This document shows, piece after piece, positions 1,876 to 21,993 of a DNA stretch of 32,237 nt. The notes beneath the pieces are model-generated. The model did no database searches. It was given only the letters and a program-made list of their open reading frames with translations, and was not told the DNA's origin. The number at the start of each line of letters is the position of its first letter. The stretch's first letter is position 1. A program made the position numbers and the translations under genes. Origin of the DNA: Tabrizicola sp. (lineage in GTDB: Bacteria > Pseudomonadota > Alphaproteobacteria > Rhodobacterales > Rhodobacteraceae); assembly GCA_016792685.1 (NCBI GenBank), contig JAEULQ010000097.1, positions 1-32,237 of the forward strand. The letters run 5' to 3'.

Positions 1876-1947
1876 GCCCGCGACCCTAGGCAGAGGCCTC
1901 GGAACTGTCAAACAGGCCACCCGACCTGTCCTTGGGCCGGGGGCGCT

Positions 1948-5549: not shown

Positions 5550-5551
5550 AA

Positions 5552-8168: not shown

Positions 8169-10004
8169 TCAGGCCAGCCGGTGCCGCTTCCAGCCGATCC
8201 GGTCGAACAGCGGCGCGTAGCACCCGGCCAAAGCGACGATCGCCGCCCCGTCGGTCCGGCCCGAAGGCTCCCAGGCCTTGGTCGCTATTCCCAGAATCCG
8301 CGGCGCGATCATGCCTTCGGCTTGGGAATCCTCCGTCGTGAACTCGCCCCAGAAACAGGCCTCGACCCCGGCGATGCGCGGTTCGATATCCTCGGCCCCT
8401 TTCGGCACCGGGTCCCAGTCCACCGTCTTCGCCAAGGGCACGAAACCGGCCCAGGCCGCGCCCCAGTCGTCCGGGTCGTCGCTGTGGGCCAGATCGAAAT
8501 AGGCGTTCTGCGCCGGACACATGACCACGTCATGCCCCCGCCTTGCGGCCTCCACCCCCGGCCCCTGGCCGGTCCAGCTGAAAAGAAGCGCGCCGTTGCC
8601 GATGCCCCCCTGCACGCCCTTGGCCGCCTCTTCCCAGGCCGCCACCCTGATCCCCTTGGCGGCCAGCCCCGCCGCAAGCCGCGCCAGCATCCAGCCCTGC
8701 ACATCGTCCGAATTGGCCAGCCCCTCGCGCCCCTTCAGCGCGGCAACAGCAGGAGAGCCATCCCAGGCCCCGTGTGGCGCCTCATCGGCCCCCAGATGCA
8801 GCATGCCGAACGGAAAGAGACCTGCCACCTCCTCGGTCAGGGGCTGCAGCACCTCCCAGGTCGCGGGCATCGCGGGGTTGACGATATTGTCGATGTAACC
8901 CTGGACCGAGGCCTCCTCGCCATTGTCCCCGGGGTCGCGCAGGCCCGGGATGGCCTTGATCATCCCGTGGCTGTGGGCGGGCACCTCGATCTCGGGCAGC
9001 ACTTCGATCTGCAACGCCGCGGCCCGTGCCAGCACCTTTGCGACATCGGCCTTGGAATAACTGCCCCCTGCGCGGATGCCGCCGCCGAAGACGCCCGGCA
9101 CCAGTTCGCCCTCGCCCCGGAAGGCAGTGCGCTGCCAAAGGAGCGGCTGGCAGGCGACCTCCAGCCGGAAAGCTTCGTCATCGGCGAAATGCCAGTGGAA
9201 GCGGTTCAGCTTCACCAGCGCCATCAGATCCAGAAGCCGCAGGATGAAGTCGACGCCAAAGAAATGCCGCGCGCAGTCAAGATGCTGGCCGCGCCAGCCG
9301 AAACGCGGGCTGTCGGTGATCACTCCGCAGGGCAGCTTGCCGTCGCAGGTCTCGCGCAGGGTCAGCAGCGTGATAGCTGCATAGTGCAGGCCCGCTGCCC
9401 CCCCGACCGCTACCGAAAGCCCCCCGGGCGCAATGGTCAGCCGGTAGGCTTCCGGCCCAAGGCTTGCGTCTTCCGTCACGGTCAGCGCAGTCCCGCCCGG
9501 GGCAACGAAAGGTGCCAGCCCCAGGCGCCCGGCCAGCTCCGCGGCGCTTTCCACCCCGGGGGTCGGCGCAAGCGCGGCAAAGTCCAGCGTCCCGGCCGAG
9601 GCCGCCCAGCCCGTCGGCTGCGGCACCAGCGGCAACCGCCCCGGCTCCAGGGGCCGGCGTGCCGGCCCCTCGCCGTCGCGCAGGCCCAGGTCGGTCGCGG
9701 GCGGCAGCGGGAGGCAGTCCTTTCCCACCCGCAGATAGGCCCCCATCGGCAACCAGGCCCGGTTGCGCGGCTTATGCCGTTCGATCACATGGACCAGAAC
9801 CAGCTCATGCACCGCGCCTGCCGAAAGGTCGGGCAGCGCTATTTCGCCATAGCCCGCCACTGACCGCACCATCGTGCCGCCCGAAACCACCCGCCAGGGC
9901 GCCATCAGCGAAAAGCACAACACGGGCGCAGTCAGCGGGCGATCCGTGCCAAGCTCGCAGCGGATCTGATGCCCGTCGATGCGGGCGCGAAAGGTCATGG
10001 TCAT
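8169..10004 (-). CDS. glycoside hydrolase family 20 beta-N-acetylhexosaminidase, predicted cytoplasmic
   Basis: A 611-residue enzyme predicted to remove terminal beta-linked GlcNAc or GalNAc by substrate-assisted catalysis. The GH20 core has the start of the barrel at DSPRFGWRGQHLDCARHF (231-248), LNRFHWHFADDEAFR (266-280), EIEVPAHSHG (338-347) and the catalytic pair D407-E408 in LHLGADEAP. Aromatic residues follow in FSWTG and ACFWGEF. The N-terminus (MTMTFRARIDG) is neither a signal peptide nor a lipobox, so hydrolysis probably follows uptake. The first 230 residues are longer than a minimal GH20 domain and probably include an N-terminal accessory domain. Its start overlaps the GntR gene's stop (ATGA), so regulator and enzyme are co-translated. 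Confidence 0.93.
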   Translation of the reverse strand: MTMTFRARIDGHQIRCELGTDRPLTAPVLCFSLMAPWRVVSGGTMVRSVAGYGEIALPDLSAGAVHELVLVHVIERHKPRNRAWLPMGAYLRVGKDCLPLPPATDLGLRDGEGPARRPLEPGRLPLVPQPTGWAASAGTLDFAALAPTPGVESAAELAGRLGLAPFVAPGGTALTVTEDASLGPEAYRLTIAPGGLSVAVGGAAGLHYAAITLLTLRETCDGKLPCGVITDSPRFGWRGQHLDCARHFFGVDFILRLLDLMALVKLNRFHWHFADDEAFRLEVACQPLLWQRTAFRGEGELVPGVFGGGIRAGGSYSKADVAKVLARAAALQIEVLPEIEVPAHSHGMIKAIPGLRDPGDNGEEASVQGYIDNIVNPAMPATWEVLQPLTEEVAGLFPFGMLHLGADEAPHGAWDGSPAVAALKGREGLANSDDVQGWMLARLAAGLAAKGIRVAAWEEAAKGVQGGIGNGALLFSWTGQGPGVEAARRGHDVVMCPAQNAYFDLAHSDDPDDWGAAWAGFVPLAKTVDWDPVPKGAEDIEPRIAGVEACFWGEFTTEDSQAEGMIAPRILGIATKAWEPSGRTDGAAIVALAGCYAPLFDRIGWKRHRLA

Positions 10005-10762
10005 GGGGAATCGAGCCTCAGTTCGGCGATGAAGTCATAGATGTCACTGCGGTAAAGCCCGCGGGTGAATTCGATCGGGCGGCCCGAGGGCACATAGGCG
10101 GTCCGGTCGATCCGGAGGACCGCCGCACCTTCGGCCAGCATCAGGTGCCGTGCGTCGAGCCCGGTAAGGTTGACCGCCGTGATCCGCTGCACCGCCCGCG
10201 TCGGCGCCGTGCCAAGCGACCGCAGCACATCGTAAAGCGAGGTCTCGACCGCTTCGGGGTCGGGCAGGATGTCGGTGGGCAGCGACGACCATTCGATGGC
10301 CAGGGGCGTATCATCGGCAAAGCGCAGACGTTCGACCCGCGCCACGCGCTCGCCGGCCGAAAGGCCCAGCGCCATCATCTCGTCCGGCGTGGGCAGGAAA
10401 AGGCCCCGGCGCAGGATGCGGCTGGACGAGGTCTTTCCGCGCTGGCGCATGTATTCGGTGAACGACAGCAGGGCCGAGAGCGAATGCTCCATCTTCGGCC
10501 GGGCCGCCTGGACAAACGTCCCCGCGCCGCGCCTTTGGTCCAGGACGCCATCGGCCACCAACTGGCTCACCGCCTTGCGGACCGTCACCCGGCTGACATC
10601 GGCAATCAGCGCCAGCTCCCGTTCCGGCGGCAACTGGGTTTCCGGGGGCAGTTCCCCCGCTGCGATTGCTGCCGCAAGATGCCGGTAAAGCTGTTCATAC
10701 CGCGGACCGCGTGCGGCCCGATACCAGGCTTCAGGGCGGTAGAGCGCGTGTTCGTCTTCCAT
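10001..10762 (-). CDS. GntR-family (HutC subfamily) transcriptional regulator of the amino-sugar locus
   Basis: 253 residues with a winged helix-turn-helix at about 20-90 (LPPERELALIADVSRVTVRKAVSQLVADG, then the wing RRGAGTFV) and a C-terminal UTRA ligand-binding domain (about 105-250, ending RGLYRSDIYDFIAEL). UTRA regulators of this type (NagR/DasR/PhnF relatives) bind sugar phosphates; GlcNAc-6-P or GlcN-6-P would fit the genes around it. The start at 10762 has a GGGGGCCCAGG ribosome site; the longer frame to 10972 covers the divergent promoter region. It is followed by the coupled hexosaminidase gene and faces the ABC transporter operon, which suggests it represses both directions from sites in the 238-bp gap. 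Confidence 0.9.
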   Translation of the reverse strand: MEDEHALYRPEAWYRAARGPRYEQLYRHLAAAIAAGELPPETQLPPERELALIADVSRVTVRKAVSQLVADGVLDQRRGAGTFVQAARPKMEHSLSALLSFTEYMRQRGKTSSSRILRRGLFLPTPDEMMALGLSAGERVARVERLRFADDTPLAIEWSSLPTDILPDPEAVETSLYDVLRSLGTAPTRAVQRITAVNLTGLDARHLMLAEGAAVLRIDRTAYVPSGRPIEFTRGLYRSDIYDFIAELRLDSP

Positions 10763-10778
10763 CCTGGGCCCCCAAAAA

Positions 10779-10802
10779 TTGGTATCATTCGGACGAAACC
10801 AA
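10779..10802. promoter_or_regulatory. candidate operator of the GntR regulator (24-bp imperfect palindrome)
   Basis: Arms TTGGTATCATTC and GGACGAAACCAA form an imperfect dyad in which TTGGT/ACCAA and the TC/GA positions match. It lies 17 bp upstream of the regulator's start codon, where binding would repress its own transcription. TTGGTAT recurs twice in the same gap, at 10884 and 10917. Confidence 0.5.
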
Positions 10803-10883
10803 ATACATCCGCGCCAGCAAGATGGCCCGAGAATCTGCCCGAAAACAAGGGAAATCCGCAGGTGGTACGGTTTTTCTGCAGAG

Positions 10884-10924
10884 TTGGTATTATAATGGTA
10901 GCAATGCCGACGTTTTTTGGTATG
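10884..10924 (+). promoter_or_regulatory. promoter of the ABC transporter operon with two TTGGTAT half-sites
   Basis: A perfect -10 hexamer TATAAT lies at 10891-10896, directly joined to a TTGGTAT half-site (10884-10890). A second TTGGTAT lies at 10917-10923, just downstream of the predicted transcription start near 10903. The -35 region is poor (around CGGTTT at 10868). The overlap of half-sites with the -10 suits direct repression. The leader to the first start codon would be about 98 nt. Confidence 0.5.
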
Positions 10925-11000
10925 GTCAGCCCCACAAGACGATTCGCCTGGCAACCGCTGCCCCGGTTGCACAGCTTACGCCACGGGAGGGGGAAGACGC

Positions 11001-11927
11001 ATGGCCCTGGTCGCCGAGACCGCCGCACCGGAACGGATGCAGCGCCGCGAACTCTCAGATCGGGCCTTTGCCTGGCTCCTGATCTCGCCTGCCGTGCTTT
11101 TCATCGCGGTCATCGTGGTCTGGCCGCTGATCGAGACGATCCGCCTTTCCTTCACCGATGCCACGCTTGGCGGCGAGAACTGGGTTGGTCTGCAGAATTA
11201 TGCGGCGCTCTTTGCCGACCCCAAGTTCTGGCAGATCGTCGGCCGCACCTTCTACTGGATGGTCCTGGCGGTCTCGCTGAAGCTGATCGTCGGCCTGATC
11301 GGCGCCACGCTCCTGAACGCCGCGGTGCCAGGCAAGGCGCTCTTCCGGGTTCTCGTCATGCCGCCCTGGGTGATCCCGATCGCCATCGGCGTCATCGGCT
11401 GGAAGTGGATGTACAACGGCTATTTCGGCCTGATCTCGGGCCTCCTGCAGGAATTCGGCCTGGTGCAGGACCGCGTCGCGCTCTTGGCCACCAAGACCTC
11501 GGCCTTCTACTCGGCCATTGTCACCGACGTCTGGGTCGGCACGCCCATGGTCACGCTCTTCTTCCTGGCCGCCATGCAGGGCGTCAGCCGCGACCTTTAC
11601 GAGGCCGCCTGGGTTGATGGCGCCAGCCGCTGGTATCGTTTCCGTCGCATCACCATTCCCCAAATCATGCCGGTGATTGTTTCCATGGCGCTGCTCTCGG
11701 CGATCTGGACCTTCAACAGCTTCGAGATCATCTGGATCCTCACCGAAGGTGGGCCGCGCGGGGCGACGACCACCCTGATCATCGACACCTACAAGGTCGC
11801 GATCTCCTCGCAGCGCTTTGGCGAGGGTGCGGCGCGGGCCGTCGTGATCGTGGTGCTGCTGGCCACCTTCTCGCTCTTCTACCTGTGGTTCCTGAACCGC
11901 GTGAACCGGCATTACGGAGCAAAATGA
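11001..11927 (+). CDS. ABC sugar transporter permease (MalF/LacF type)
   Basis: A 308-residue inner-membrane subunit with six hydrophobic segments. The EAA loop that docks to the ATPase is visible as EAAWVDGASRWYRFRRITIPQIMP near residues 200-223. The family is the carbohydrate uptake (CUT1) permease group, which imports mono- and oligosaccharides. The start at 11001 (MALVAETA) follows a strong GGGAGGGGGAAG ribosome site; the open frame extends to 10917, but that would place the start in the promoter. Its stop overlaps the second permease's start. As the first gene after the regulated promoter it opens the uptake part of the amino-sugar operon. Confidence 0.93.
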   Translation: MALVAETAAPERMQRRELSDRAFAWLLISPAVLFIAVIVVWPLIETIRLSFTDATLGGENWVGLQNYAALFADPKFWQIVGRTFYWMVLAVSLKLIVGLIGATLLNAAVPGKALFRVLVMPPWVIPIAIGVIGWKWMYNGYFGLISGLLQEFGLVQDRVALLATKTSAFYSAIVTDVWVGTPMVTLFFLAAMQGVSRDLYEAAWVDGASRWYRFRRITIPQIMPVIVSMALLSAIWTFNSFEIIWILTEGGPRGATTTLIIDTYKVAISSQRFGEGAARAVVIVVLLATFSLFYLWFLNRVNRHYGAK

Positions 11928-12772
11928 TGCAGATCGAAAAGCTCTCGCTCCTGCAGAAGATCGGCGTCTACATCGCCACGTTCTTCTTCCTGCTCTTCGT
12001 CCTGATGCCCTTCATCGAGATGATCCGCGTCTCGCTGCGGCCCATGAGCCACCTGATGACCGCCGATTTCACCTGGTGGTCCGAGGATTTCAGCCTGCAG
12101 GCCTATCGCGACATGTGGGTGACGGTCCCGCTTCTGGGCCGCTACATCTTCAACTCGATCTTCATCGCCACATCTGTGACCGCGCTGACCATGGTCGTGG
12201 TGGTCCCGGCCGCCTATGCCTATGCCCGGCTCGAGTTTCCGTTCAAGACGCTCTCGCTTGGCGGGTTCCTGGCGGTCAACATGTTCACCGGGGCCGTGCT
12301 TCTGATCCCGCTCTACCGCGTCCTGCGCACGCTTTCGATGCTGAACACCTATTGGGCGATCATCATCCCCGGCGTGGCCTTCCTGATCCCGACCGGCATC
12401 TGGCTTCTCCGCTCGTATCTCGAGAAGATCCCGCGCGAGCTTGAGGAGGCGGCCTTCGTCGACGGAGCCTCGCGCCTTTACACGCTGCGCCGCGTGGTGA
12501 TCCCGCTGGCCGTTCCCGGCCTGATCGTGGTCGGCACCGCGGTCTTCATCGGCGCCTATGCCCAGCAGTTCCTCTTTGCCATCACCTTCAACAATGTCCG
12601 AGAGATCCAGCCCCTTCCGGCCGGTCTTTACGAGTTTATCGGCTACCAGGACGTGACCTGGAACGAGATGATGGCCGCTGCCCTGACCGGTATCACCCCG
12701 GTGATGCTCGTCTTCCTGTTCCTGCAAAAGTATCTCGTCGCCGGACTGACGGCCGGCGCCGTGAAAGAGTGA
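11924..12772 (+). CDS. ABC sugar transporter permease (MalG/LacG type)
   Basis: A 282-residue partner permease with six hydrophobic segments and an EAA loop, EEAAFVDGASRLYTLRRVVIPLAVP, near residues 182-206. It pairs with the preceding permease to form the membrane channel of a CUT1 importer. Two consecutive ATG codons (11924 and 11927) are possible starts; the first forms an ATGA overlap with the upstream stop and has GGAG at a good distance. The C-terminus LVAGLTAGAVKE is the usual tail of MalG-type permeases. The binding-protein gene follows after 33 bp with its own ribosome site. Confidence 0.93.
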   Translation: MMQIEKLSLLQKIGVYIATFFFLLFVLMPFIEMIRVSLRPMSHLMTADFTWWSEDFSLQAYRDMWVTVPLLGRYIFNSIFIATSVTALTMVVVVPAAYAYARLEFPFKTLSLGGFLAVNMFTGAVLLIPLYRVLRTLSMLNTYWAIIIPGVAFLIPTGIWLLRSYLEKIPRELEEAAFVDGASRLYTLRRVVIPLAVPGLIVVGTAVFIGAYAQQFLFAITFNNVREIQPLPAGLYEFIGYQDVTWNEMMAAALTGITPVMLVFLFLQKYLVAGLTAGAVKE

Positions 12773-12805
12773 CCAACCACGAAGTCCAACCAAGGGAGAC
12801 TACGA

Positions 12806-14014
12806 ATGACCCACCTCAAGACCCTGACGGTCGCCGCTGGCCTGATGGCTGGCACGGCCCTTTCGGCCCAGGCGCAAGAGCTGCACTTCATCATGTGCGG
12901 CGGCGAAGTGCGCCCGGCCGACCAGGCTGTGATCGACAAGTTCCAGGCCGACAACGCCGGCGTCACCGTTAAGATGGAAGCGGTGGAATGGGGCACCTGC
13001 CAGGACAAGTCGATGCAGCTTGCCGCCGCCGGCGACCCGCCGGACGTGGCCTACATGGGCTCGCGCACCCTGCGCCAGCTTGCCAACAATGACCTGATCG
13101 TCCCCGTCACCTTCACGCCCGAGGAAGAGGCCGCCTACCAGCCCGGCGTTCTGAAGACCGTGACCAACGGCGGCCAGTACTGGGGCATCCCGCATGCCTT
13201 CTCGACCAAGGCGCTCTACATCAACTGCGCCGTGGTCGAAGCCGCGGGGGCTGAATGCAAGGCGCCGGCCACCTGGCCGGAACTGATCGCGCTGGCGAAG
13301 ACCGTGACCGACAACACCGATGCCGCAGGCATCGGCATTGCCGGCAAGGATTTCGACAACACGATGCACATGTTCCTCGACTTCCTCTATTCGAACGGCG
13401 GCAAGGTCTACAACGACGACGGCACCCCGGCGCTCGACAGCCAGCAGACCCGCGAGACCCTGCAGCTTTACGCAGACCTACTGCCCTACATGCAGTCCGG
13501 CCCGACCGAATGGGAACGTGACCAGATGAAGGACCTCTTCAACGACGGGCAGATCGCCATGTACGTCTCGGGTCCCTGGGGCGAAGGCCAGCACAAGGAA
13601 AAGGTCCCGACCCAGATCGTCGCCCCCGTCCCGGCTGGCCCCTCGGGTCCCTCGGGCACGATCCTGATCACCGACTCGCTCGCTGTCTTCAAGGGCACCG
13701 GGAACGAGGAACTGGCGATCAAGCTGGCCAAGGCGCTGACGTCCGGTGAAGCCCAGTACGACCTCGACTCGACCTGGGGCCTGACGCCCATCCTGCAGTA
13801 CGAAAAGATCGGCATCGCAGACCCCTACTACACCAAGGGCAACTGGCCGATCTTCGTGGCCGGCATCTCGACCGGCGGCCCCGAGCCGATGGTCGAGGAC
13901 TTCAAGGCCCTGCAGGCCGTCTTCACCAATATGATCCAGGGGATCATGCTCGGCGAAGGCTCGGTTGACGAACTGGTGACGCAAGCCGGCGTCGAACTCG
14001 CAGCGGTCCGCTGA
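12806..14014 (+). CDS. ABC transporter periplasmic sugar-binding protein
   Basis: A 402-residue extracellular solute-binding protein of the maltose/oligosaccharide-binding type. A signal peptide covers residues 1-23 with a likely cut after AQA (AQA|QE). The mature part has the family's GDPPDVAYMG, WGIPHAFSTKALYIN and GQIAMYVSGPWGE stretches. Four cysteines (in MCGG, GTCQD, INCAV and AECKA) could form disulfides, fitting the periplasm. The ribosome site AAGGGAG precedes the start. Unlike many CUT1 operons, the binding protein comes third, after the permeases, and is followed by a strong stem-loop. Neighbouring genes predict GlcNAc, GalNAc or their oligosaccharides as ligand; the sequence alone does not show this. 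Confidence 0.93.
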   Translation: MTHLKTLTVAAGLMAGTALSAQAQELHFIMCGGEVRPADQAVIDKFQADNAGVTVKMEAVEWGTCQDKSMQLAAAGDPPDVAYMGSRTLRQLANNDLIVPVTFTPEEEAAYQPGVLKTVTNGGQYWGIPHAFSTKALYINCAVVEAAGAECKAPATWPELIALAKTVTDNTDAAGIGIAGKDFDNTMHMFLDFLYSNGGKVYNDDGTPALDSQQTRETLQLYADLLPYMQSGPTEWERDQMKDLFNDGQIAMYVSGPWGEGQHKEKVPTQIVAPVPAGPSGPSGTILITDSLAVFKGTGNEELAIKLAKALTSGEAQYDLDSTWGLTPILQYEKIGIADPYYTKGNWPIFVAGISTGGPEPMVEDFKALQAVFTNMIQGIMLGEGSVDELVTQAGVELAAVR

Positions 14015-14029
14015 TCGCCTGAACAGCCC

Positions 14030-14056
14030 GGGGGCGCGGTTCCGCGCCGCGCCCCC
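14030..14056 (+). terminator. strong stem-loop after the binding-protein gene (attenuator or mRNA stabiliser)
   Basis: Perfect 10-bp arms GGGGGCGCGG (14030-14039) and CCGCGCCCCC (14047-14056) with a 7-nt loop, followed by TTTCCTT. Hairpins at this spot in ABC operons often keep the binding protein more abundant than the membrane subunits. The short T-run allows partial termination before the ATPase gene. Confidence 0.75.
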
Positions 14057-14091
14057 TTTCCTTCCGCCCTTCCTGACCCAAGGACGCGCCC

Positions 14092-15189
14092 ATGGCCACG
14101 CTTGACCTTCAGAACCTGACGAAATCCTTCGGCTCGGCCCAGGTGCTGACCGGGATCGACCTCGCCATCCGCGACAAGGAATTCGTGGTCTTCGTTGGCC
14201 CCTCGGGCTGTGGCAAATCCACGCTCCTGCGCATCATCGCCGGGCTTGAGGGTGCCACCACCGGCCAGATCCTGATCGACGGCGTCGACGTCTCGGATGC
14301 CGCACCGGTTGACCGCGGGATCTCGATGGTCTTCCAGTCCTACGCGCTCTATCCCCATCTTTCGGTCTACGAAAACATCGCCTTCCCGCTGCGCGTCGCC
14401 CGTCTCCCCGAGGCCGAGGTCAAGCAGAAGGTCGGCCGCGCCGCCGAGATCCTGCAGCTCACCGAAAAGCTGCCCTTGAAGCCCGGCCAGCTCTCTGGTG
14501 GCCAGCGCCAGCGCGTGGCCATCGGTCGCTCGATTGTCCGCAACCCCAAGGTCTTTCTTTTCGACGAGCCGCTCTCGAACCTTGACGCTGCCCTTCGCGG
14601 TGAAATGCGGGTCGAGCTTTCCGCCCTCCAGCGCGACCTTGACGCCACCATGGTCTACGTCACCCACGACCAGGTCGAGGCGATGACAATGGCCCACCGC
14701 ATCGTGGTGCTGAACAAGGGCCGGATCGAGCAATTCGGCACGCCCATGGAACTTTATCACCACCCGGCGACCCGCTTCGTGGCCACCTTCATCGGCCAGC
14801 CGAACATGAACCTCTTGCCCGCCTCGGTGATCGGCACCGGCGCCGATGGCCTGACCGTCGAATTCCACGGCGGCACCCGGATGACCATTCCGGTCGACAG
14901 CGCCGGAGCCAAGACGGGCGACCGCGTCGAAGTGGGTCTTCGTCCGGAAAACCTGAAACTCGGCCAGGGCGTCTCGATGCGCCTGCGGGTCCTCGAACGC
15001 CTCGGCGGCACCGCCATCGCCTATGGCCAGATGGCCGACGGGCTCAAGATCTGCGCAGCCCTGCCTGGCGACACGACCGTGCACGAGGGCGAGGATGTGG
15101 GTCTCACCTTTGCGCCCGCCGACGCCCATGTCTTTGACGCGACTGGCCGCGTGATGCGGCGCCGGCAGGCCCCCGCGCTCGCCGCCTGA
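14092..15189 (+). CDS. ABC sugar transporter ATP-binding protein (MalK/UgpC/MsmK type)
   Basis: A 365-residue ATPase that powers the two permeases. Walker A is GPSGCGKST (36-44), followed by a Q-loop in VFQSYALYPH, the signature LSGGQRQR, Walker B with the D-loop in FLFDEPLSNLD and the switch histidine in YVTHDQ. Residues from about 240 onward form the TOBE/regulatory domain of CUT1 ATPases (GLRPENLKL). It lies 77 bp after the binding-protein gene, behind the stem-loop. These ATPases can serve several sugar importers in a cell, but the gene order ties this one to the local system. Confidence 0.95.
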   Translation: MATLDLQNLTKSFGSAQVLTGIDLAIRDKEFVVFVGPSGCGKSTLLRIIAGLEGATTGQILIDGVDVSDAAPVDRGISMVFQSYALYPHLSVYENIAFPLRVARLPEAEVKQKVGRAAEILQLTEKLPLKPGQLSGGQRQRVAIGRSIVRNPKVFLFDEPLSNLDAALRGEMRVELSALQRDLDATMVYVTHDQVEAMTMAHRIVVLNKGRIEQFGTPMELYHHPATRFVATFIGQPNMNLLPASVIGTGADGLTVEFHGGTRMTIPVDSAGAKTGDRVEVGLRPENLKLGQGVSMRLRVLERLGGTAIAYGQMADGLKICAALPGDTTVHEGEDVGLTFAPADAHVFDATGRVMRRRQAPALAA

Positions 15190-15204
15190 AGGAAGGAGAA
15201 TACC

Positions 15205-16347
15205 ATGCGGATTGTCACCTCAGGCATCGGCCTGCGGGCCGGTCACGTCTTGACCACGCTCAAGGCCGAGATGCCCGAAGCCGAAATCGTGGGCTACTAC
15301 GACCCCCAGCCCACCCATCTGGATATGATCGGGACCGACACGCCGCGCTATCCCTCGGTCGAGGCGATGCTCTCCGATGCAAAGCCCGACCTCTACTGCG
15401 TCTTCTCGCCGAACGTCTTTCACCTCGACCAGATCCGCCTGGGGCTGGAAGCAGGCGTGCAGGTCTTCACCGAAAAGCCGGTCGTCGTGTCGATCGAGGA
15501 GACCCTCGAACTCGCCCGCCTGCTGGCAAAGCACGGCGGCGTCAACCGCGCCATGGTCGGCCTCGTCCTGCGCTATTCGCAACACATGGTCGACCTCCGC
15601 GCGGCCATGGCGCAGGGCTGGCTCGGCGAAATCACCAGCCTCGAGGCCAACGAACACATCGGCCCCTACCACGGCGCCTTCTTCATGCGCGACTGGCGCC
15701 GGAAGACCGGCCTTGCTGGCGGCTTCATGCTGGAAAAATGCTGCCACGACCTCGACATCTACAACATGGTCACCGGCTCCCGCCCCCAGCGCGTCGCAAG
15801 CTTCGGCGGGCGGAAAAGCTTTGTCCCGGCCAATGCGCCCAAGTCCAACGCCGAGGCCGAGATCTTCCACGTCAAGAAATCGGTCTGGGAAGCGACCGAT
15901 GATCCCTTCAACTCCGACGGCGACATCATCGACTTCCAGACCGCGATCCTGCAGTACGAGACCGGCTCCAGCCTCGCCTTTCACACCAATCTCAACGTCC
16001 CCGACGAACATCGTCGGTTCTGCGTGATCGGCACTCACGGCATGGCCGAAGGCGACTTTGTCCGCGGCTTCCTGAAAGTCACCGCCCGCGACGGCCGCCG
16101 CCTCGCCGACCACGACTATACGCAAGGTACCGCGATGAAGGGCGCGCACTACGGCGCCGACCAGCTCATGTGCCGCGACATCACCGCCTACCTGCGCGGG
16201 CAATCCGACCACCTCCCCGTCTCCATCCTTGACGCCATGGAAGCAGGCATCGCCGCCATCGCCCTCGACGAGGCCCGCACCACCGGGCAGGTCGTCGACC
16301 TCACCGAGACCTGGGCCCAGCTTGACAGCCACGGGCTTCGCAAATGA
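15205..16347 (+). CDS. Gfo/Idh/MocA-family NAD(P)-dependent oxidoreductase
   Basis: A 380-residue two-domain oxidoreductase. The N-terminal Rossmann part begins IVTSGIGLRAGHV (a GxGxxxG-like turn) and has the family's EKP motif (E90-K91-P92), whose lysine acts in catalysis. The C-terminal domain carries GGFMLEKCCHDLDIYN (170-185), with H179 in the usual catalytic position. The start has a strong AAGGAAGGAG site 15 bp after the ATPase gene. Family members oxidise or epimerise sugars, inositols and amino-sugar derivatives. In this operon it may process a modified or linked amino sugar before the common pathway, but no substrate can be read. No signal peptide is seen. Confidence 0.9.
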   Translation: MRIVTSGIGLRAGHVLTTLKAEMPEAEIVGYYDPQPTHLDMIGTDTPRYPSVEAMLSDAKPDLYCVFSPNVFHLDQIRLGLEAGVQVFTEKPVVVSIEETLELARLLAKHGGVNRAMVGLVLRYSQHMVDLRAAMAQGWLGEITSLEANEHIGPYHGAFFMRDWRRKTGLAGGFMLEKCCHDLDIYNMVTGSRPQRVASFGGRKSFVPANAPKSNAEAEIFHVKKSVWEATDDPFNSDGDIIDFQTAILQYETGSSLAFHTNLNVPDEHRRFCVIGTHGMAEGDFVRGFLKVTARDGRRLADHDYTQGTAMKGAHYGADQLMCRDITAYLRGQSDHLPVSILDAMEAGIAAIALDEARTTGQVVDLTETWAQLDSHGLRK

Positions 16348-16381
16348 CCCTGCTTGCCCCCATCACCCCCGGCCGCCAAAA

Positions 16382-16424
16382 GCGCCACTCCTCTGTCGTA
16401 GGGGGTTGGGGTTTGGGGGCGACC
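16382..16424 (+). repeat. G-rich intergenic repeat, copy 1
   Basis: A pyrimidine-rich arm (CCACTCCTCTGT), CGTAGG and three G-tracts (GGGGG, GGGG, GGGGG). Similar elements with the same order lie at 23642-23690 and 26761-26802. The copy sits in the 97-bp gap before the first SIS gene, the widest gap in the first half of the operon. Confidence 0.5.
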
Positions 16425-16444
16425 ACCATCACCCGAGCCAAGAC

Positions 16445-17452
16445 ATGATCGACCTGCCCCCCGACGCCGGCCAGCACATGGCACGCGAGATCGCCGAAGC
16501 GCCCGGCGTCTTCGCGGCCTCCGTCGCGCAACCCGTCACCCTGCCCGACCTGACCGCGCTCCGCGCGATCTACACCGTCGCCCGCGGCTCCTCGGATGCC
16601 GCCGCCAACATCCTCGCCTACGAAATGATGCGCGAGACCGGCCTGCCGGTGACGTCGCTGCCACCCTCGATCTTCTCCCTCGGCCACGGAGTCCGCCTGA
16701 CCGACGCAGCCGTCCTTGTCGTCTCGCAATCCGGCGCTTCCGACGACCTCGTCCGGTCGGCCCAAGGGGCCCGGGCTGCCGGCGCCACGGTCATCGCCCT
16801 TACCAACGCCCCAGACAGCCCGGTTGAGGCCGCAGCCGACACGACACTCCGGATCGGCGCGGGCCCCGAGCTTGCCGTTCCCGCCACCAAATCCGTCGTC
16901 GGCGCCATCGCGGGTGGCATGGCGCTCATCTCTGCCCTCGTCCCCTCCTATGGCCCCCGTGCGACAGCGTCGGCCCAGGGCCTCGCCGCGCTGCAGGACA
17001 AGACCCTTCCCAACACCCGCGCCATTCTCGCCGCCCTCCTGCGCGCCAGCCACGTCTATGTCATCGGCCGCGATACGGGCTACGGGGCGGCACAGGAACT
17101 GGCGCTCAAGCTCAAGGAATGCTGCGCCCTCCACGCCGAGGCCTATTCCAGCAGCGAAGTCCTCCACGGCCCGCTGCAACTGGTCACCAACCCGCTCCTG
17201 ATCCTCATCCTCGACACCGAGCAACCCGACGTGCAGCCCAGCCTCGACACGGCTGAGGCCCGCTTCCGCGCGGCCGGCGGCACGGTCTTCCGCCTCCGCG
17301 CGTCCGAGGCCGGGGCGACAAGCCTCACCCCGGCCGCCGCCGCTGCCGCGCTCCTCTGCCTTACCTATCCGCTTGCCCTGCAAACAGCCCTCGCCCTCGG
17401 TCTCGACCCTGACCGCCCTGCGACCCTGTCCAAGGTGACCCAGACAAGATGA
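16445..17452 (+). CDS. SIS-domain glucosamine-6-phosphate deaminase-like protein (NagB-II type)
   Basis: A 335-residue protein with two SIS domains and no glutaminase domain, i.e. the isomerase half of GlmS used in reverse. Visible are ARGSSDAAANILAYEMM (46-62), the phosphate loop VSQSGASDD (93-101) and HAEAYSSSEVLHGPLQLV in the second SIS domain. NagB-II enzymes convert GlcN-6-P to fructose-6-P plus ammonia. ATG 16445 is the first start in frame after the end of the oxidoreductase gene, with a weak ribosome site. Both flanks carry repeat elements (16382-16424 and 17475-17577), so it stands apart from the tightly overlapping genes downstream. Confidence 0.88.
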   Translation: MIDLPPDAGQHMAREIAEAPGVFAASVAQPVTLPDLTALRAIYTVARGSSDAAANILAYEMMRETGLPVTSLPPSIFSLGHGVRLTDAAVLVVSQSGASDDLVRSAQGARAAGATVIALTNAPDSPVEAAADTTLRIGAGPELAVPATKSVVGAIAGGMALISALVPSYGPRATASAQGLAALQDKTLPNTRAILAALLRASHVYVIGRDTGYGAAQELALKLKECCALHAEAYSSSEVLHGPLQLVTNPLLILILDTEQPDVQPSLDTAEARFRAAGGTVFRLRASEAGATSLTPAAAAAALLCLTYPLALQTALALGLDPDRPATLSKVTQTR

Positions 17453-17474
17453 TGCTTCCGCGCCAATTGCCCGT

Positions 17475-17577
17475 TTCGCCAGATACTCCCGCCAGGGGCG
17501 TCCAGTCCTCTGTGCGCCCTTCGCGGGCAGAGGCGAGACGAAGGCATGCGCGGAACGCGCTCACCTTGATAACCGCC
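17475..17577 (+). repeat. hairpin repeat element, copy A (inside the operon)
   Basis: In the 171-bp gap between the two SIS genes. A CCAGATACTCCC leader is followed by a hairpin with arms CCTCTG/CAGAGG, then the 49-nt block 17529-17577. That block differs from copy B (26690-26738) at only 9 positions. Its stem GCGCG/CGCGC (17548-17552, 17556-17560) replaces GCGGC/GCCGC of copy B by two base-pair swaps, which is covariation. Confidence 0.75.
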
Positions 17578-17623
17578 CCGATCCGCAACCAGACCCTCCC
17601 CAGCCCGAAGTGACCGAAGCAAG

Positions 17624-18682
17624 ATGAACGACCTCGCCCGTCACGCCACCTGGCGCGAAATCCAGTCCCAGCCAGCCATCTGGCGGGACTGGGGGGCAGG
17701 ACTGCCCGTCGCCGACCTGCGCCAGTGGATCGCCGCCACCGGCGTCTCCGAGGTCTGGTTCTGCGGTGCCGGAACCTCCGCCTATATCGGCGACATCCTC
17801 GCTGCGGGTCTCGAAGGCCAGCCCGGTCTTCGCTTCCGGTCGGTCCCCACCACCGACATCGTCGCCCGCCCGCATGCCTACCTTGTCGGCACGCCCTGCC
17901 TGATCGTCAGTTTCGGCCGCTCGGGCAATTCCACCGAATCCATCGGCCTTCTTGATGCCCTCGATGCCCTGGCGCCCGGCTGGCCGCGCCTCAACATCAC
18001 CTGCAACGGCACGTCGGCCCTTGCAACCCGCCCCGGCGCGAACGTCATCACTCTGCCCGAAGCCACCCATGATCAGGGCTTCGCGATGACCTCCAGCTTT
18101 TCGACCATGCTCCTCACCGCTGCAGCGCTTTTCGACACAAGCCTCACGCCGGAAGACACGGTAACGCGTTTCGCCGCCCTCTCCGACACCCTCTCCGTCC
18201 TGCTCCCCGACTTCACCGCCCAGGCCCGTGCCTCCCGCCGCCCTGCCCGTGCCGTTTTCGTGGGCTCGGGCCCCCTCGCCTTCGCCGCCCGCGAAGCCGC
18301 GCTGAAGGTCATGGAGCTTGCCGCCGGCCAGATCCCCGCGCTTTGGGACAGCACCCTCGGCTTCCGCCACGGTCCGAAAAGCTTCACCGTGGGCGATACC
18401 GACCTTTGGCTCTTCCGTTCCGCCGACCCCCTGACCCGCGCCTATGACGAAGATCTTCTGGCCGAGCTTCGCGCCCAGTTCCCGGCAAGCCGCGTCACTG
18501 CCCCGGTCGTACCCCACCCCTTTGGCGACCTCTGGTCCGCCCCGCTCTACGTCGCCCTCGCCCAGATCCTTGCGGTACACTGGTCCGAAGCGCTTGGCCT
18601 CAACGTCGACGACCCTTTCGCCGGACTTGGCACCCTGACCCGCGTGGTCTCGGGCGTCAGGCTGCACAAGGTGACGTCATGA
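17624..18682 (+). CDS. agaS: AgaS-like SIS-domain galactosamine-6-phosphate deaminase/isomerase
   Basis: 352 residues with two SIS domains: FCGAGTSAYIG (46-56) and SFGRSGNSTES (96-106) in the first, and VGSGPLAFAAREAALKVMELAAG followed by STLGFRHGPKSF in the second. The last stretch closely follows the AgaS pattern, distinguishing it from the NagB-II-like protein upstream. AgaS deaminates and isomerises GalN-6-P to tagatose-6-P. The ROK kinase gene overlaps its end (ATGA), starting a block of four overlapping genes. The 171-bp gap in front holds repeat copy A and no obvious promoter. Having both SIS proteins suggests separate GlcN-6-P and GalN-6-P activities. Confidence 0.88.
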   Translation: MNDLARHATWREIQSQPAIWRDWGAGLPVADLRQWIAATGVSEVWFCGAGTSAYIGDILAAGLEGQPGLRFRSVPTTDIVARPHAYLVGTPCLIVSFGRSGNSTESIGLLDALDALAPGWPRLNITCNGTSALATRPGANVITLPEATHDQGFAMTSSFSTMLLTAAALFDTSLTPEDTVTRFAALSDTLSVLLPDFTAQARASRRPARAVFVGSGPLAFAAREAALKVMELAAGQIPALWDSTLGFRHGPKSFTVGDTDLWLFRSADPLTRAYDEDLLAELRAQFPASRVTAPVVPHPFGDLWSAPLYVALAQILAVHWSEALGLNVDDPFAGLGTLTRVVSGVRLHKVTS

Positions 18683-19587
18683 TCGCAGCCGGCATCGACC
18701 TCGGCGGCACCAAGATCGAGGCTCAGGTCTTCGCTCCTGACTGGTCGCTTGCCGCCCGCCACCGCTGGCCGACGCCCAAGGATTACCCAAGCCTTGTCAC
18801 CGCCATGGCCGAGGCCATCCGCTGGTGCGAAACCCCTGCCGCGAATCTGCCCGTCGGCATCTCTGCCGCAGGCCTCATCAACCCAGCCACGGGCCTGGCC
18901 CTGACGTCGAACCTCCCCGCCACCGGCAAGCCCTTCCCGCAGGACATCGCTGACGCTGCAGGCCGCCCCATCGCCTGGATCAACGACTGCCGCGCCCTCA
19001 CTCTGTCCGAAGCCATGCTCGGCGCAGCCAAGGGTGCCGACCCCGCCGTGGGCCTCATCCTCGGCACTGGCGTTGCGGGCGGCGTTGTCACCGGGGGCAA
19101 GCTCCTCCCCTCGCCCGCCGCTACTGGGGGCGAGTTTGGTCATTTCCCCCTCGCTGCCGCCCCCATTGTGGCCCACGGACTCCCTATCCTCACCTGTGGC
19201 TGTGGCCGGCTGGGCTGCGCCGAGACTTATCTCTCCGCCCCGGGCCTCGCCCGCATCGCCTCACATCTCACCGGCGCTGACCACGCGCCCGAAACCATCG
19301 TCGCGGGCCGTGCAACCACCCCCGCTTTCGCCAAGGCCTGGGCGATCTGGCTCGACCTCGCGACCGAGTTTCTCGTTACCCTCTGCCTCACGCTCGACCC
19401 CCATGTCATCGTGATCGGCGGCGGCCTCTCCCGCGCCCCGGGTCTGACCGATGACCTGACCGCTCGGCTGACCAAGGCCACCCTGAAAGGCTTTCCCGTG
19501 CCCGCCATCCGCCTCGCCGAAGGCGGCGATGCCTCCGGCGCCCGCGGCGCTGCCCTTCATGCCGTGAACGAGGGCGCCCATGCCTGA
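18679..19587 (+). CDS. ROK-family sugar kinase, probable N-acetylhexosamine kinase
   Basis: 302 residues. The phosphate-binding loop DLGGTK lies at 7-12, catalytic D103 in INDCRA, the second phosphate loop in GTGVAGG, the substrate contact GEFGH (151-155) with E152 and H155, and the zinc-binding CGCGRLGCAE (173-182). This is the complete ROK signature; no helix-turn-helix is present, so it is an enzyme and not a repressor. Together with the ABC importer, which delivers unphosphorylated sugar, and NagA downstream, it is best read as a GlcNAc/GalNAc 6-kinase. It overlaps agaS (4 nt) and the PF08013 gene (8 nt). Confidence 0.9.
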   Translation: MIAAGIDLGGTKIEAQVFAPDWSLAARHRWPTPKDYPSLVTAMAEAIRWCETPAANLPVGISAAGLINPATGLALTSNLPATGKPFPQDIADAAGRPIAWINDCRALTLSEAMLGAAKGADPAVGLILGTGVAGGVVTGGKLLPSPAATGGEFGHFPLAAAPIVAHGLPILTCGCGRLGCAETYLSAPGLARIASHLTGADHAPETIVAGRATTPAFAKAWAIWLDLATEFLVTLCLTLDPHVIVIGGGLSRAPGLTDDLTARLTKATLKGFPVPAIRLAEGGDASGARGAALHAVNEGAHA

Positions 19588-20848
19588 CCTCGCCCGGATC
19601 ATCTCCCGAAACCGCGCCGGGGAAGCCATCGCCATCCCCTCGGTCTGCACCGCCCATCCAGACGCGCTTGAGGCCTCGCTGACGCTGGCCGAGACCCTCG
19701 ACCAACCCGTGGTGATCGAGGCCACCTCGAACCAGGTCAATCAGGACGGCGGCTATACCGGCCTAACCCCCACAGCCTTCATCGCCTTCGTCAATGACAT
19801 CGCCGACCGGGCGGGTGTCGCCCGCAGCCGGATCCTCTTCGGCGGCGACCACCTCGGCCCTCAGGCCTGGCGCAAGCTCCCGGCGGCCGAGGCGATGGAG
19901 AAGGCCCACCGCATGGTCGCCGACTACGCCGCTGCGGGCTTCACCAAGATCCACCTCGACTGCTCGGAAGGCTGCGCGGGCGAAGCTCCCCAGCTTCCCG
20001 ACGAAATCACCGCAACCCGTTCCGCCGCCCTCGCCGCGACTGCCCTCCAGCACGCCCCGGACCCGACGAAGCTGCTCTTCGTCATTGGCACCGAAGTCCC
20101 GCCCCCCGGCGGGGCCCGCACCGACGACCATGGGCTGATCCCCCCCACCACGCCAGAGGCCGCCAAAGCCACCCTCGCCGCCCACCGCGAGGCCTTCGCC
20201 GCCCTGAGCCTCCCCCTCGACCAGATCGGTGGCCTTGTCGTGCAGCCGGGCGTCGAGTTCTCGCCGATGGAGGTCCACCACCTGCCTCTCGCCCGCGACC
20301 CGGGCCTTCTGGCCGCGCTCACCGACTGGCCCGGCCTCTGCCTCGAGGCCCATTCCACCGACTACCAGCACCCCGCCGCCTATCCCTGCCTGGCCGAGCT
20401 GGGCTTCGCCTTCCAGAAAGTCGGCCCCGCCCTCACCTTCGCCTGGCGCGAGGCGCTTTACGCGCTCGACGCGATCCGTGCCCAGAACGCCTGGGCCAGC
20501 GGCCCATCGCTTCCCGACGCGATGGAAGCGGTGATGCTGGTGAACCCTGCATACTGGCAGGCCCATATCCACGGCCACAGCGCCGATCCGCGGACCGAAC
20601 GGCACTTCGGCCTCGCCGACCGCATCCGCTACTACTGGCCCGACCCCAAGGCGCAATCGGCTGTCGCGCAGCTGATGTCCGACCTCGACGGCAAACGCCT
20701 GCCTGACCCGATGCTCCTGGCGCATTTCCGCGCCGATGAGATTGCCACCGCCCGCGCCAGCCACTATCCCCTGCCCCGCGCACTGGCCCTGGCCCGGGTG
20801 CAAACCGCCCTCCGCCCCTATTTCTTCAACTCCGGACCCCGGTCATGA
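19580..20848 (+). CDS. GatZ/KbaZ-family protein (PF08013): tagatose-bisphosphate aldolase subunit homologue or tagatose-6-P 4-epimerase
   Basis: 422 residues, the full family length. Clear family blocks are SVCTAHP, IEATSNQVNQDGGYTG, FGGDHLGP, KIHLDCSEGC, VIGTEVPPPGG, VVQPGVEF, EAHSTDYQ, KVGPALTFA and DRIRYYWP. In enterobacteria GatZ/KbaZ is a non-catalytic partner of the GatY/KbaY aldolase, but some PF08013 members (described in Agrobacterium galactitol catabolism) are tagatose-6-P 4-epimerases giving fructose-6-P. No GatY/KbaY and no tagatose-6-P kinase is present in the window, which favours the epimerase reading here. It overlaps the kinase gene (8 nt) and nagA (ATGA). Confidence 0.87.
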   Translation: MPDLARIISRNRAGEAIAIPSVCTAHPDALEASLTLAETLDQPVVIEATSNQVNQDGGYTGLTPTAFIAFVNDIADRAGVARSRILFGGDHLGPQAWRKLPAAEAMEKAHRMVADYAAAGFTKIHLDCSEGCAGEAPQLPDEITATRSAALAATALQHAPDPTKLLFVIGTEVPPPGGARTDDHGLIPPTTPEAAKATLAAHREAFAALSLPLDQIGGLVVQPGVEFSPMEVHHLPLARDPGLLAALTDWPGLCLEAHSTDYQHPAAYPCLAELGFAFQKVGPALTFAWREALYALDAIRAQNAWASGPSLPDAMEAVMLVNPAYWQAHIHGHSADPRTERHFGLADRIRYYWPDPKAQSAVAQLMSDLDGKRLPDPMLLAHFRADEIATARASHYPLPRALALARVQTALRPYFFNSGPRS

Positions 20849-21993
20849 GCGCCCAACCCGACCTCTGGCTCCTTCCCGATGCGCTCTTCGACGGCAGCCG
20901 CCTCAGGTCCGGCCTAGCCCTTGGCCTCGCCCGGGGCCGCAGCCTGACGCTCGCCGAGGCCGCGGCACTCCCCTCTGGCGCCCCGGTTCGTCGCATCCCG
21001 GGCACGCTGACCCCCGGCTTTCTCGACCTGCAGGTGAACGGCGGCGGCGATGCCCTGCTCAACAACGACCAGTCGCCCGCCAGCCTTGCCACGATGGCCG
21101 CCGCCCACCGCCGCTTTGGCACCATCGGCATCCTGCCCACAGTGATCACCGACGCGCCCGAAGTCCTGGCCCGCGCCGTCGACGCGGCCATCGCGGCGAA
21201 AGGCGGCCCAGGCCTTCTGGGCCTCCACATCGAAGGGCCCCATCTGTCCATCCCCCGCCGTGGCACCCATGCCGCCGAATGGGTCCGCCCTTTCGAGCAA
21301 ACGACGCTGGACCATATCCTTCGCCTGCGCGCCGAAGGTCTTTTCGTGAAGATCACCGTCGCGCCCGAAAGCGTCACGCCCGACCAGGTTGCCCGGATCG
21401 TCGCAACTGGGGCCGTGGTTTCGATCGGCCATTCCGATGCCACGGCAGATGAGGTGCGCGCCCTTCTCGACGCAGGTGCCAGCTGCTTTACCCATCTTTT
21501 CAATGCCATGTCGCCGATGCTGAACCGCGCGCCGGGCGTGACCGGGGCCTGCATCAATTCGACCGCCTATGCCGGCATCATCTGTGACGGGATCCATGTC
21601 GCCGACGAGATGGTCGGCCTAGCCATCCGCGCCCGTCCCGTTCCCGGCCGGATGTTCCTCGTCTCGGATGCGATGAGCACGGTCGGCGGCTCCGACCACT
21701 TCCGCCTCTACGGTCAGGACGTCTGGCTGAAGGACGGTCGGCTGGTGAATGCCGAAGGCTCACTTGCCGGGGCGCATGTGACCATGGCCGAAGGCCTCCA
21801 GCGCCTGATCACCGTTGTCGGCACCAGCCCGGAGATCGCCCTCGACATGGCCGCAGCGGCCCCGGCCCGCCTGATCGGCCAGACCGAACTCGCCAGCCCG
21901 GAACACCGTGCCCTTGCAGATCTCTTGCTTCTCGACGCCGACTGGCGCGTCACCGGCAATGTGGCGCAGCTGATGGAGCGTCAGGCGGCCTGA
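20845..21993 (+). CDS. nagA: N-acetylglucosamine-6-phosphate deacetylase NagA
   Basis: A 382-residue amidohydrolase that removes acetate from GlcNAc-6-P, and in GalNAc pathways from GalNAc-6-P. Metal and substrate residues are visible: HIEGPHLS with E130, SIGHSDAT with H196, THLFNAMS with H217, DGIH with H251 and the catalytic D275 in LVSDAMS. The start overlaps the PF08013 gene's stop by ATGA. It is the last gene of the operon and the only deacetylase in the locus, so it would have to serve both the GlcNAc and GalNAc branches if both exist. It ends 19 bp before the convergent lipoprotein gene, with no clear terminator in that gap. Confidence 0.95.
   Translation: MSAQPDLWLLPDALFDGSRLRSGLALGLARGRSLTLAEAAALPSGAPVRRIPGTLTPGFLDLQVNGGGDALLNNDQSPASLATMAAAHRRFGTIGILPTVITDAPEVLARAVDAAIAAKGGPGLLGLHIEGPHLSIPRRGTHAAEWVRPFEQTTLDHILRLRAEGLFVKITVAPESVTPDQVARIVATGAVVSIGHSDATADEVRALLDAGASCFTHLFNAMSPMLNRAPGVTGACINSTAYAGIICDGIHVADEMVGLAIRARPVPGRMFLVSDAMSTVGGSDHFRLYGQDVWLKDGRLVNAEGSLAGAHVTMAEGLQRLITVVGTSPEIALDMAAAAPARLIGQTELASPEHRALADLLLLDADWRVTGNVAQLMERQAA

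Follow-up and report, generated by a model that had tools for sequence, protein, structure and literature searches.

How could one operon handle both N-acetylglucosamine (GlcNAc) and N-acetylgalactosamine (GalNAc), and where would the two branches meet? This question is raised by a locus in a 32,237-nucleotide stretch (the window) from Tabrizicola sp., a member of the Rhodobacteraceae whose genome assembly comprises 136 contigs at 88.9% completeness. The original prediction had described an ABC importer, a ROK kinase, NagA and two SIS proteins, divergent from a GntR regulator and a hexosaminidase, and every gene that it named was recovered by profile matches (Pfam, NCBIfam) within the window (Table 1). 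It had omitted two genes inside the span it described (10001-21993), encoding a Gfo/Idh/MocA oxidoreductase and a PF08013 protein (AgaZ), and its GH20 gene lies almost entirely outside that span. The AgaS, ROK, AgaZ and NagA genes overlap consecutively by 4, 8 and 4 bases (from their coordinates), as in an operon. The gene order is repeated in relatives at protein identities of about 40-92%, and the locus is thus far beyond chance; among cultured relatives, Tabrizicola thermarum (L091) carries the operon in full. The named loci used for comparison were the best 80 of 394, which biases counts to close relatives; importer-gene matches below 38% identity were ignored, and adjacency was counted in the 62 of these 80 loci that are longer than 19 kb.

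Table 1. Features of the locus, in window coordinates.
Feature	Coordinates	Strand	Evidence
GH20 beta-N-acetylhexosaminidase, 611 aa	8169..10004	-	Pfam PF00728, 276 bits
GntR-UTRA regulator, 253 aa, divergent	10001..10762	-	Pfam; start chosen in the analysis
Three TTGGTAT sites (10779, 10884, 10917)	10779..10923	+	Motif analysis
ABC permease A (UgpA/MalF type)	11001..11927	+	NCBIfam best UgpA, 114 bits, cut-off 335 not reached
ABC permease B (MalG type)	11885..12772	+	NCBIfam best MalG, 116 bits, cut-off 261 not reached
ABC solute-binding protein	12806..14014	+	Pfam PF13416/PF01547
MalK/UgpC-type ABC ATPase	14092..15189	+	NF008653, 446 bits, above cut-off 432
Gfo/Idh/MocA oxidoreductase	15205..16347	+	Nearest fold NAD-dependent glycosidase GH188 (SqgA)
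NagB-II-like SIS protein (SIS1), 335 aa, predicted glucosamine-6-P deaminase	16445..17452	+	NagB_SO3506, PDB, tree
AgaS-like SIS protein (SIS2), 352 aa, predicted galactosamine-6-P deaminase/isomerase	17624..18682	+	TIGR02815, PDB 3c3j, tree
ROK sugar kinase, 302 aa, predicted GlcNAc/GalNAc 6-kinase	18679..19587	+	Pfam PF00480, 167 bits
AgaZ/KbaZ/GatZ-like PF08013 protein, 422 aa, predicted tagatose-6-P 4-epimerase	19580..20848	+	Pfam PF08013, about 453-454 bits (cut-off 26.7)
NagA-like deacetylase, 382 aa	20845..21993	+	NF008371, 237.5 bits, cut-off 483

We consider it likely that the locus encodes a dual GlcNAc/GalNAc pathway that uses no PTS and ends in an epimerase. N-acetylhexosamines or their short glycosides would enter through the ABC importer, monosaccharides would be released by GH20 and perhaps by the Gfo/Idh enzyme too, the ROK kinase would form the 6-phosphates and NagA would take the acetyl group off both. 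NagB-II would then convert glucosamine-6-P to fructose-6-P, and AgaS would convert galactosamine-6-P to tagatose-6-P, which AgaZ would turn into fructose-6-P by C4 epimerisation; AgaS and AgaZ together could thus yield the product of NagB-II. With the branches meeting at fructose-6-P, no tagatose-1,6-bisphosphate aldolase would be needed. All these genes are probably under the control of the single GntR regulator encoded divergently. Sequence comparison establishes the genes and their families, the conserved order, and how the modules separate and co-occur; every substrate in the scheme (of the importer, kinase, deacetylase and SIS proteins among others), the regulation and the direction in which AgaZ works are predictions. 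SIS1, SIS2, ROK, AgaZ and NagA all score under the NCBI equivalog/subfamily cut-offs given here (NCBIfam models).

Both SIS proteins have intact motifs. The best NCBIfam model for SIS1 is NagB_SO3506 (182 bits, scored on a longer reading frame from 16229; equivalog cut-off 430 bits), and SIS1 matches PDB entries 8eol and 3hba at 142 bits; SIS2 scores 259 bits against TIGR02815 (cut-off 529 bits). Since both scores lie below the curated cut-offs, the two proteins count as relatives within their families and cannot by rule be called equivalogs. In a tree of stop-free matches with a query coverage of 75% or more, which carries a warning of long branches (E. coli AgaS being one), SIS2 grouped with E. 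coli AgaS and SIS1 with NagB-II-like proteins in separate clades (supports 100/100 and 98/98), the grouping of SIS1 with NagB-II-like rows having a support of about 98/98 to 99/97.

Both SIS proteins could instead serve one sugar, or AgaS another amino-sugar epimer, in an operon essentially for GlcNAc/chitin. SIS proteins can indeed do other chemistry, as in the NagS dehydratase (PMC12680351, accessible text), and the regulatory elements track the NagB-II part: GntR relatives at 52-55% adjoin NagB-II-like genes in four loci (L066, L068, L069, L070), with NagA-like genes also beside such relatives in other loci, and the TTGGTAT array is present in a locus without AgaS (L052). This array, in which the second and third sites are spaced by 33 bp and an additional TGGTA lies 11 bp past the second, is a probable operator array; of 84 intergenic stretches collected, 76 distinct ones were used, and the shuffles preserve base composition only. 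However, SIS2 clusters with E. coli AgaS, whose gene is required for GalNAc, nagB being dispensable (PMC3668189, accessible text), and every sampled AgaS genome has a PF08013 gene, of a family known for tagatose-6-P handling. We regard this alternative as quite improbable.

The dual pathway also draws on co-occurrence across the family. AgaS was found in 29 of 295 Rhodobacteraceae genomes (two of these calls, G093 and G206, being weak or broken), and PF08013 in 29/29 of these versus 22/266 others, so that 22 genomes have PF08013 without AgaS; the corresponding P of 1e-26 assumes independent genomes and ignores common descent. The NagB-II and AgaS searches scored at most seven candidates per genome. 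NagB-II orthologs, taken as proteins of at least 53% identity (a gap in the list, the next being at 42%, rather than a formal border), occur in 23 genomes, in one of which (G128) the gene stands without the importer. The 20 of these that have AgaS all have PF08013, and the three without AgaS have none. L052 has the same operon except that AgaS and AgaZ are missing; this locus and the co-occurrence counts show the AgaS/PF08013 pair to be separable from NagB-II. A local AgaZ is absent from 5/20 dual operons, and all five genomes carry PF08013 elsewhere; the same is true of 15/15 genomes with an AgaZ-less locus in the named collection, at least three of them shared with the family sample. The in-trans genes of these 15 genomes score 476-575 bits, versus 453 for the window, and may have another main job. 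Four relatives (L062-L065) and a Paracoccus plasmid (L167) show a sister layout, in which NagB-I directly follows the ATPase gene of an importer related to that of the window, AgaS is present and NagB-II is absent; NagB-I occurs in none of the 23 NagB-II-ortholog genomes. The separate clades, the separable AgaS/PF08013 pair and the substitution of NagB-I for NagB-II support the prediction that both sugars share importer, kinase and deacetylase and diverge at two different SIS enzymes, although the original prediction was incomplete in overlooking PF08013.

AgaZ is a member of PF08013 and scores 446 bits against TIGR02810 (cut-off 569). E. coli GatZ and KbaZ have fructose-6-P/tagatose-6-P C4-epimerase activity in vivo, in the direction of tagatose-6-P, and seven active-site residues of GatZ are named in the accessible text of the same source (PMC11907403). 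These residues (C20, E44, D87, H88, E171, H257, K279) correspond to C23, E47, D90, H91, E172, H258 and K280 of the window protein and are identical in 54/54 rows, window included (stop-free matches that span 75% or more of the query; one of 52 PF08013 rows was the window again and was left out). Because they are kept in every row, they do not distinguish between an epimerase, a kinase and a partner of an aldolase. The AgaS-PF08013 link does not discriminate between these either, since all it shows is a dependence of AgaS on a PF08013 function of some kind.

We searched 32 genomes for the enzymes of a tagatose-1,6-bisphosphate route. KbaY/GatY (TIGR01858) was over the cut-off of 443.55 bits in 0/32 (best 161 bits; 145.9 in the window genome), the E. 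coli control being over it in the same search; weaker class II aldolases occurred in 21/32, and LacC kinase at E<=1e-40 in 0/32. The window genome has a single PF01116 aldolase gene, which follows iolC- and iolB-like genes, and we found eight PfkB-family matches and, at 487 bits against a cut-off of 392, a class I fructose-bisphosphate aldolase that might cleave tagatose-1,6-bisphosphate. These last genes would suit a dual operon in which AgaZ is a tagatose-6-P kinase, as proposed earlier (review PMC12118421, accessible text, citing Leyn 2012), or acts together with a kinase, and in which the class I aldolase forms triose phosphates from tagatose-1,6-bisphosphate; co-occurrence fits this equally well as an epimerase. 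The in vivo activity of the E. coli PF08013 members and the LacC and KbaY results argue against it, and we hold a kinase role to be unlikely.

For the shared steps, the best NCBIfam match of the ROK protein is N-acetylglucosamine kinase (181.5 bits, cut-off 380), and the NagA-like protein scores 224 bits against TIGR00221 (cut-off 225.65) and matches PDB 3egj. Deacetylation of both sugars by one enzyme has precedents in the accessible texts: nagA and agaA are interchangeable in E. coli (PMC3668189), and Streptomyces NagA deacetylates GalNAc-6-P (PMC12680351).

At the entry side, the solved relatives of the solute-binding protein are distant (best 82 bits), and inspection of the GH20 N-terminus by eye revealed no obvious signal peptide, which makes the enzyme possibly cytoplasmic. 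The Gfo/Idh protein matches the GH188 fold. Lys107, Glu189 and His193 of ArSqgA (residues from the accessible text of PMC10755693; numbering offset of 13 derived by hand) correspond to its K91, E177 and H181, invariant in 25/25. In the profile alignment, L122 and I152 replace ArSqgA Tyr136 and the sulfonate-binding Arg166, and the protein is therefore probably not a sulfoquinovosidase. Intracellular cleavage of an imported glycoside is possible, given these features of GH20 and the resemblance of the Gfo/Idh protein to NAD-dependent glycosidases. Together with the distant binding protein, this would be compatible with an operon whose target is an unrelated sugar or a compound one (an oligosaccharide or glycoside that contains HexNAc), free monosaccharide use being a by-product. 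This has little probability in our view: the downstream genes suit HexNAc-6-phosphate catabolism, and L053 (a 4.5-kb contig) has no Gfo/Idh gene between ATPase and NagB-II yet keeps the binding protein, ATPase, NagB-II, ROK and NagA.

If the dual pathway with an epimerase ending is true, many Rhodobacteraceae do not use the GalNAc route via tagatose-1,6-bisphosphate, and the PF08013 protein, still termed a non-catalytic aldolase subunit in NCBIfam and plasmid records, would be the enzyme closing the pathway. Annotation would be sharpened for AgaS as well, which plasmid records name "phosphosugar isomerase" or "SIS domain-containing protein", and the two-sugar operon would be testable by single deletions and growth on the two sugars. 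A more speculative reading, which we hold to be less likely than not, is that in Alphaproteobacteria two or more mergers of the GlcNAc and GalNAc pathways took place, starting from opposite sides. In one, seen in the window, a nag operon under GntR control would have gained AgaS and the AgaZ epimerase; in the other, NagB-I would have joined an AgaS locus that has a divergent ABC arm. The GalNAc branch of both would skip the tagatose-bisphosphate aldolase and re-join at fructose-6-P, with the importer-linked Gfo/Idh protein a new NAD-dependent glycosidase for imported N-acetylhexosaminides.

Searches of open-access literature did not show the merged operon, and we make no claim that it is undescribed. 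Leyn 2012 reportedly placed AgaZ in the Shewanella non-PTS GalNAc pathway. That pathway (AgaP, AgaK, AgaA-II, AgaS) resembles the window in its permease and kinase replacing the PTS, its deacetylase and AgaS (PMC12118421, PMC2996990). Non-PTS GalNAc pathways, and a NagA common to both sugars, are known from the accessible texts, and to call the merged non-PTS design distinctive, as the original prediction did, was an overstatement given the two-sugar deacetylase of E. coli (PMC3668189) and the Shewanella route (PMC12118421). Similarly, the Shewanella GlcNAc pathway (NagP, NagK, NagB-II) proceeds by kinase, deacetylation and NagB-II to fructose-6-P, but as described for GlcNAc in the accessible part of PMC2996990 it has no AgaS/AgaZ, both present in the window, and the Nag and Aga pathways form separate sets there, whereas the window holds both deaminases and an ABC importer in one operon. 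The Paracoccus saliphilus plasmid locus (L167) is like the window in its Gfo/Idh, ABC importer, AgaS, ROK, PF08013 and NagA genes and differs by two divergent arms, a DeoR/GlpR regulator, a CutC gene and NagB-I in the absence of NagB-II. The E. coli aga/kba GalNAc cluster (K-12 record) shares an AgaS-type deaminase and a KbaZ-type PF08013 protein but imports through a PTS and has KbaY, an aldolase of its own, together with an additional putative deaminase, AgaI (in K-12, agaW and agaA are pseudogenes); the window operon instead combines an ABC importer with a kinase, a GntR regulator and NagB-II, and KbaY is absent. Finally, AgaZ shares its family and the seven named residues with the PF08013 4-epimerases of E. 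coli (GatZ/KbaZ), Agrobacterium and Sinorhizobium (PMC11907403, accessible text); in E. coli, gatZ and kbaZ belong to PTS clusters for galactitol and GalNAc that carry aldolase genes of their own, whereas the window gene stands downstream of AgaS and beside NagB-II, with no such aldolase.

The operon and its divergent partners are set out in the table. The original prediction, of a single operon serving both GlcNAc and GalNAc with the branches parting at two SIS deaminases, came with a gene list that is correct as given but lacks the Gfo/Idh/MocA oxidoreductase and AgaZ. The window belongs to a 3.58 Mb assembly (88.9% complete), where it is contig C3. Among the named genomes (best 80 of 394 loci) the closest relatives of its AgaS, at 80-85%, come from Tabrizicola, Rhodobacter and other Rhodobacteraceae, which places the window in this family.

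Features of the window (operon genes in order) and of related loci
Feature	Position	Strand	Remark
MFS transporter	640-1920		similar to Tet(A/B/C) efflux pumps; 305 bits, far below cut-off of 475; not claimed as resistance
glmU and glmS	4197-7369		biosynthetic, opposite flux, close to the catabolic cluster
GH20 hexosaminidase		opposite to operon
GntR-UTRA regulator		opposite to operon
TTGGTAT direct repeats	10779-10923		upstream of operon, in helical phase (11, 22, 33 bp)
Permease A		+
Permease B		+
Solute-binding protein		+
GC stem and T tail	14030-14056		strong; between solute-binding protein and ATPase genes
MalK-type ATPase		+
Gfo/Idh/MocA oxidoreductase		+
NagB-II-like SIS (SIS1)		+
Intergenic hairpin	17453-17623		171-base gap between SIS genes; -67 kcal/mol, z -3.4
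AgaS-like SIS (SIS2)		+
ROK kinase		+
AgaZ (PF08013)	19580-20848	+
NagA		+
APH-type kinase and class III aminotransferase	28174-30509		adjacent; each matches one end of the long fused model PRK06148
L067 (genome G206)	8369-14450		dual operon left only as fragments
CutC-family gene, L167	10191-10934		Paracoccus plasmid; adjoins Gfo/Idh gene
CutC-family gene, L171	10259-10987		Paracoccus plasmid; adjoins Gfo/Idh gene

SIS1 shares conserved motifs with the NagB-II structures that it matches, 8eol and 3hba, and SIS2 does so with its own match, E. coli AgaS (3c3j). A maximum-likelihood tree (53 rows) separated an AgaS group (27 rows, including E. coli AgaS) from the operon NagB-II group (21 rows, adjoined by 4 further NagB-II-like rows), with the caveat of long branches, both those that part the two families and those of E. 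coli AgaS and GlmS. The hairpin gap between the two genes may be an inserted repeat element at the start of the AgaS part; a 28-base piece of it occurs once in the window.

We used a sample of 295 genomes of the family for comparison. AgaS was detected in 29 (E<=1e-10; weak or broken in G093 and G206), PF08013 in 51 and NagB-II-like proteins in 96 (E<=1e-35), 23 of these genomes having an ortholog at >=53% identity, the remaining matches lying at 33-42%. AgaS was present in 20 of the 23 ortholog genomes, and in 19 of these 20 the two genes are adjacent on one contig; in the last (G287), contig ends cut the operon and a NagB-II fragment still adjoins AgaS. PF08013 accompanied AgaS in 29/29 genomes, versus 22/266 genomes lacking AgaS and 0/3 NagB-II-ortholog genomes lacking AgaS, the co-occurrence P values assuming independence of genomes that are in fact related. 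One of these three (G128) carries NagB-II apart from any such importer. Among the named loci (best 80 of 394), NagB-II adjoins AgaS in 60 of the 62 longer than 19 kb, and AgaZ is absent from 15. Genome comparison supports the dual-pathway reading well, the substrates being predicted ones. In G206, the dual operon looks as if it were in decay, and NagB-I is retained elsewhere in the genome.

The NagB-II ortholog is absent from nine of the 29 AgaS genomes: six carry NagB-I (two slightly below the curated cut-off) and three a NagB-II-like protein at 35-42%. NagB-I was found in none of the 23 NagB-II-ortholog genomes. In four of the genomes with NagB-I (L062-L065), its gene immediately follows that of the ATPase in an arm that runs divergently (Gfo/Idh, permeases, solute-binding protein, ATPase) and whose importer proteins are 42-64% identical to the window's, and the opposite arm holds AgaS and ROK in 4/4, AgaZ in 2/4 and NagA in 3/4. 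The NagB-I layout recurs on a Paracoccus saliphilus plasmid, there with a DeoR/GlpR regulator, and on a P. seriniphilus plasmid, where NagB-I was not found within the 25 kb seen. AgaS, ROK and NagA also occur in two plasmid loci of Rhizobiaceae, which lack this importer arrangement. NagB-I and NagB-II are described as non-orthologous enzymes of one reaction (PMC5583593), and each occupies the same place beside AgaS in its layout; this replacement is the best argument that NagB-II would act on GlcN-6-P. It also suggests that two separate mergers may have taken place.

Some relatives carry natural deletions. L052 (G155) retains GH20, GntR, importer, Gfo/Idh, NagB-II, ROK and NagA and lacks both AgaS and AgaZ; this pair therefore resembles a module that can be taken out of a NagB-II operon. 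Of the 20 dual operons, five (L055, L057, L058, L059 and L060) have AgaS without AgaZ in place, and each of these genomes carries a PF08013 gene elsewhere. All 15 named genomes with an AgaZ-less locus (at least three also in the family sample) and one added genome (L139) likewise have a PF08013 gene; AgaS thus appears to depend on such a protein, regardless of where it is encoded, a pattern silent on the PF08013 reaction. In G056, another of the dual-operon genomes, the operon is divided over two contigs (L038, L061), the second of which holds AgaZ together with its neighbours ROK and NagA.

In NCBIfam, AgaZ bears the name of a non-catalytic tagatose-bisphosphate aldolase subunit. With 14 controls, and the E. 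coli control above cut-off, the catalytic partner KbaY/GatY exceeded its cut-off in 0/32 genomes (29 with AgaS, three without); weaker class II aldolases occurred in 21 of the 32 (best match 125-161 bits versus a cut-off of 443.55), 9/29 AgaS genomes had none at E<=0.001, and the sole PF01116 gene of the window genome follows iolC- and iolB-like genes. LacC kinase reached E<=1e-40 in 0/32. A bisphosphate route may still operate in place of an epimerase ending, since a class I aldolase is present in the window genome. E. coli GatZ and KbaZ are reported to convert fructose-6-P to tagatose-6-P in vivo, and modelling in the same source proposes a zinc site and a catalytic Asp (PMC11907403); the seven residues named there are identical in 54/54 PF08013 rows, window included. 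Conversion of tagatose-6-P to fructose-6-P by AgaZ is the simplest reading.

Of 76 distinct stretches between GntR and permease genes, 74 contain TTGGTAT, at 2.4 copies per stretch versus 0.04 in base-composition shuffles, and the commonest TGGTA spacings in these 76 are 11, 33 and 22 bp. All three TTGGTAT sites of the window lie inside this region (as many in 2/100 window shuffles), and the array also precedes L052, which lacks AgaS. We infer that the GntR protein probably uses this array as its operator; direct instead of inverted repeats are unusual for GntR/HutC-type regulators. Within the operon, the stem after the solute-binding protein gene is possibly an attenuator raising that protein above the remaining genes, with terminator-like matches around it not above shuffles (8 versus 6.6). 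Outside it, the APH-type kinase and aminotransferase pair appears as if it were a split form of the PRK06148 protein.

For the shared steps, PMC3668189 reports that E. coli nagA and agaA are interchangeable and that GalNAc use requires agaS, not nagB. Streptomyces NagA is described as deacetylating GalNAc-6-P at ~1/10 of its GlcNAc-6-P efficiency (PMC12680351), and operons without AgaS (L052, L053) retain a ROK relative (54-59% identity). The single parts are all known; what sets the operon apart is their combination, together with the predicted epimerase ending.
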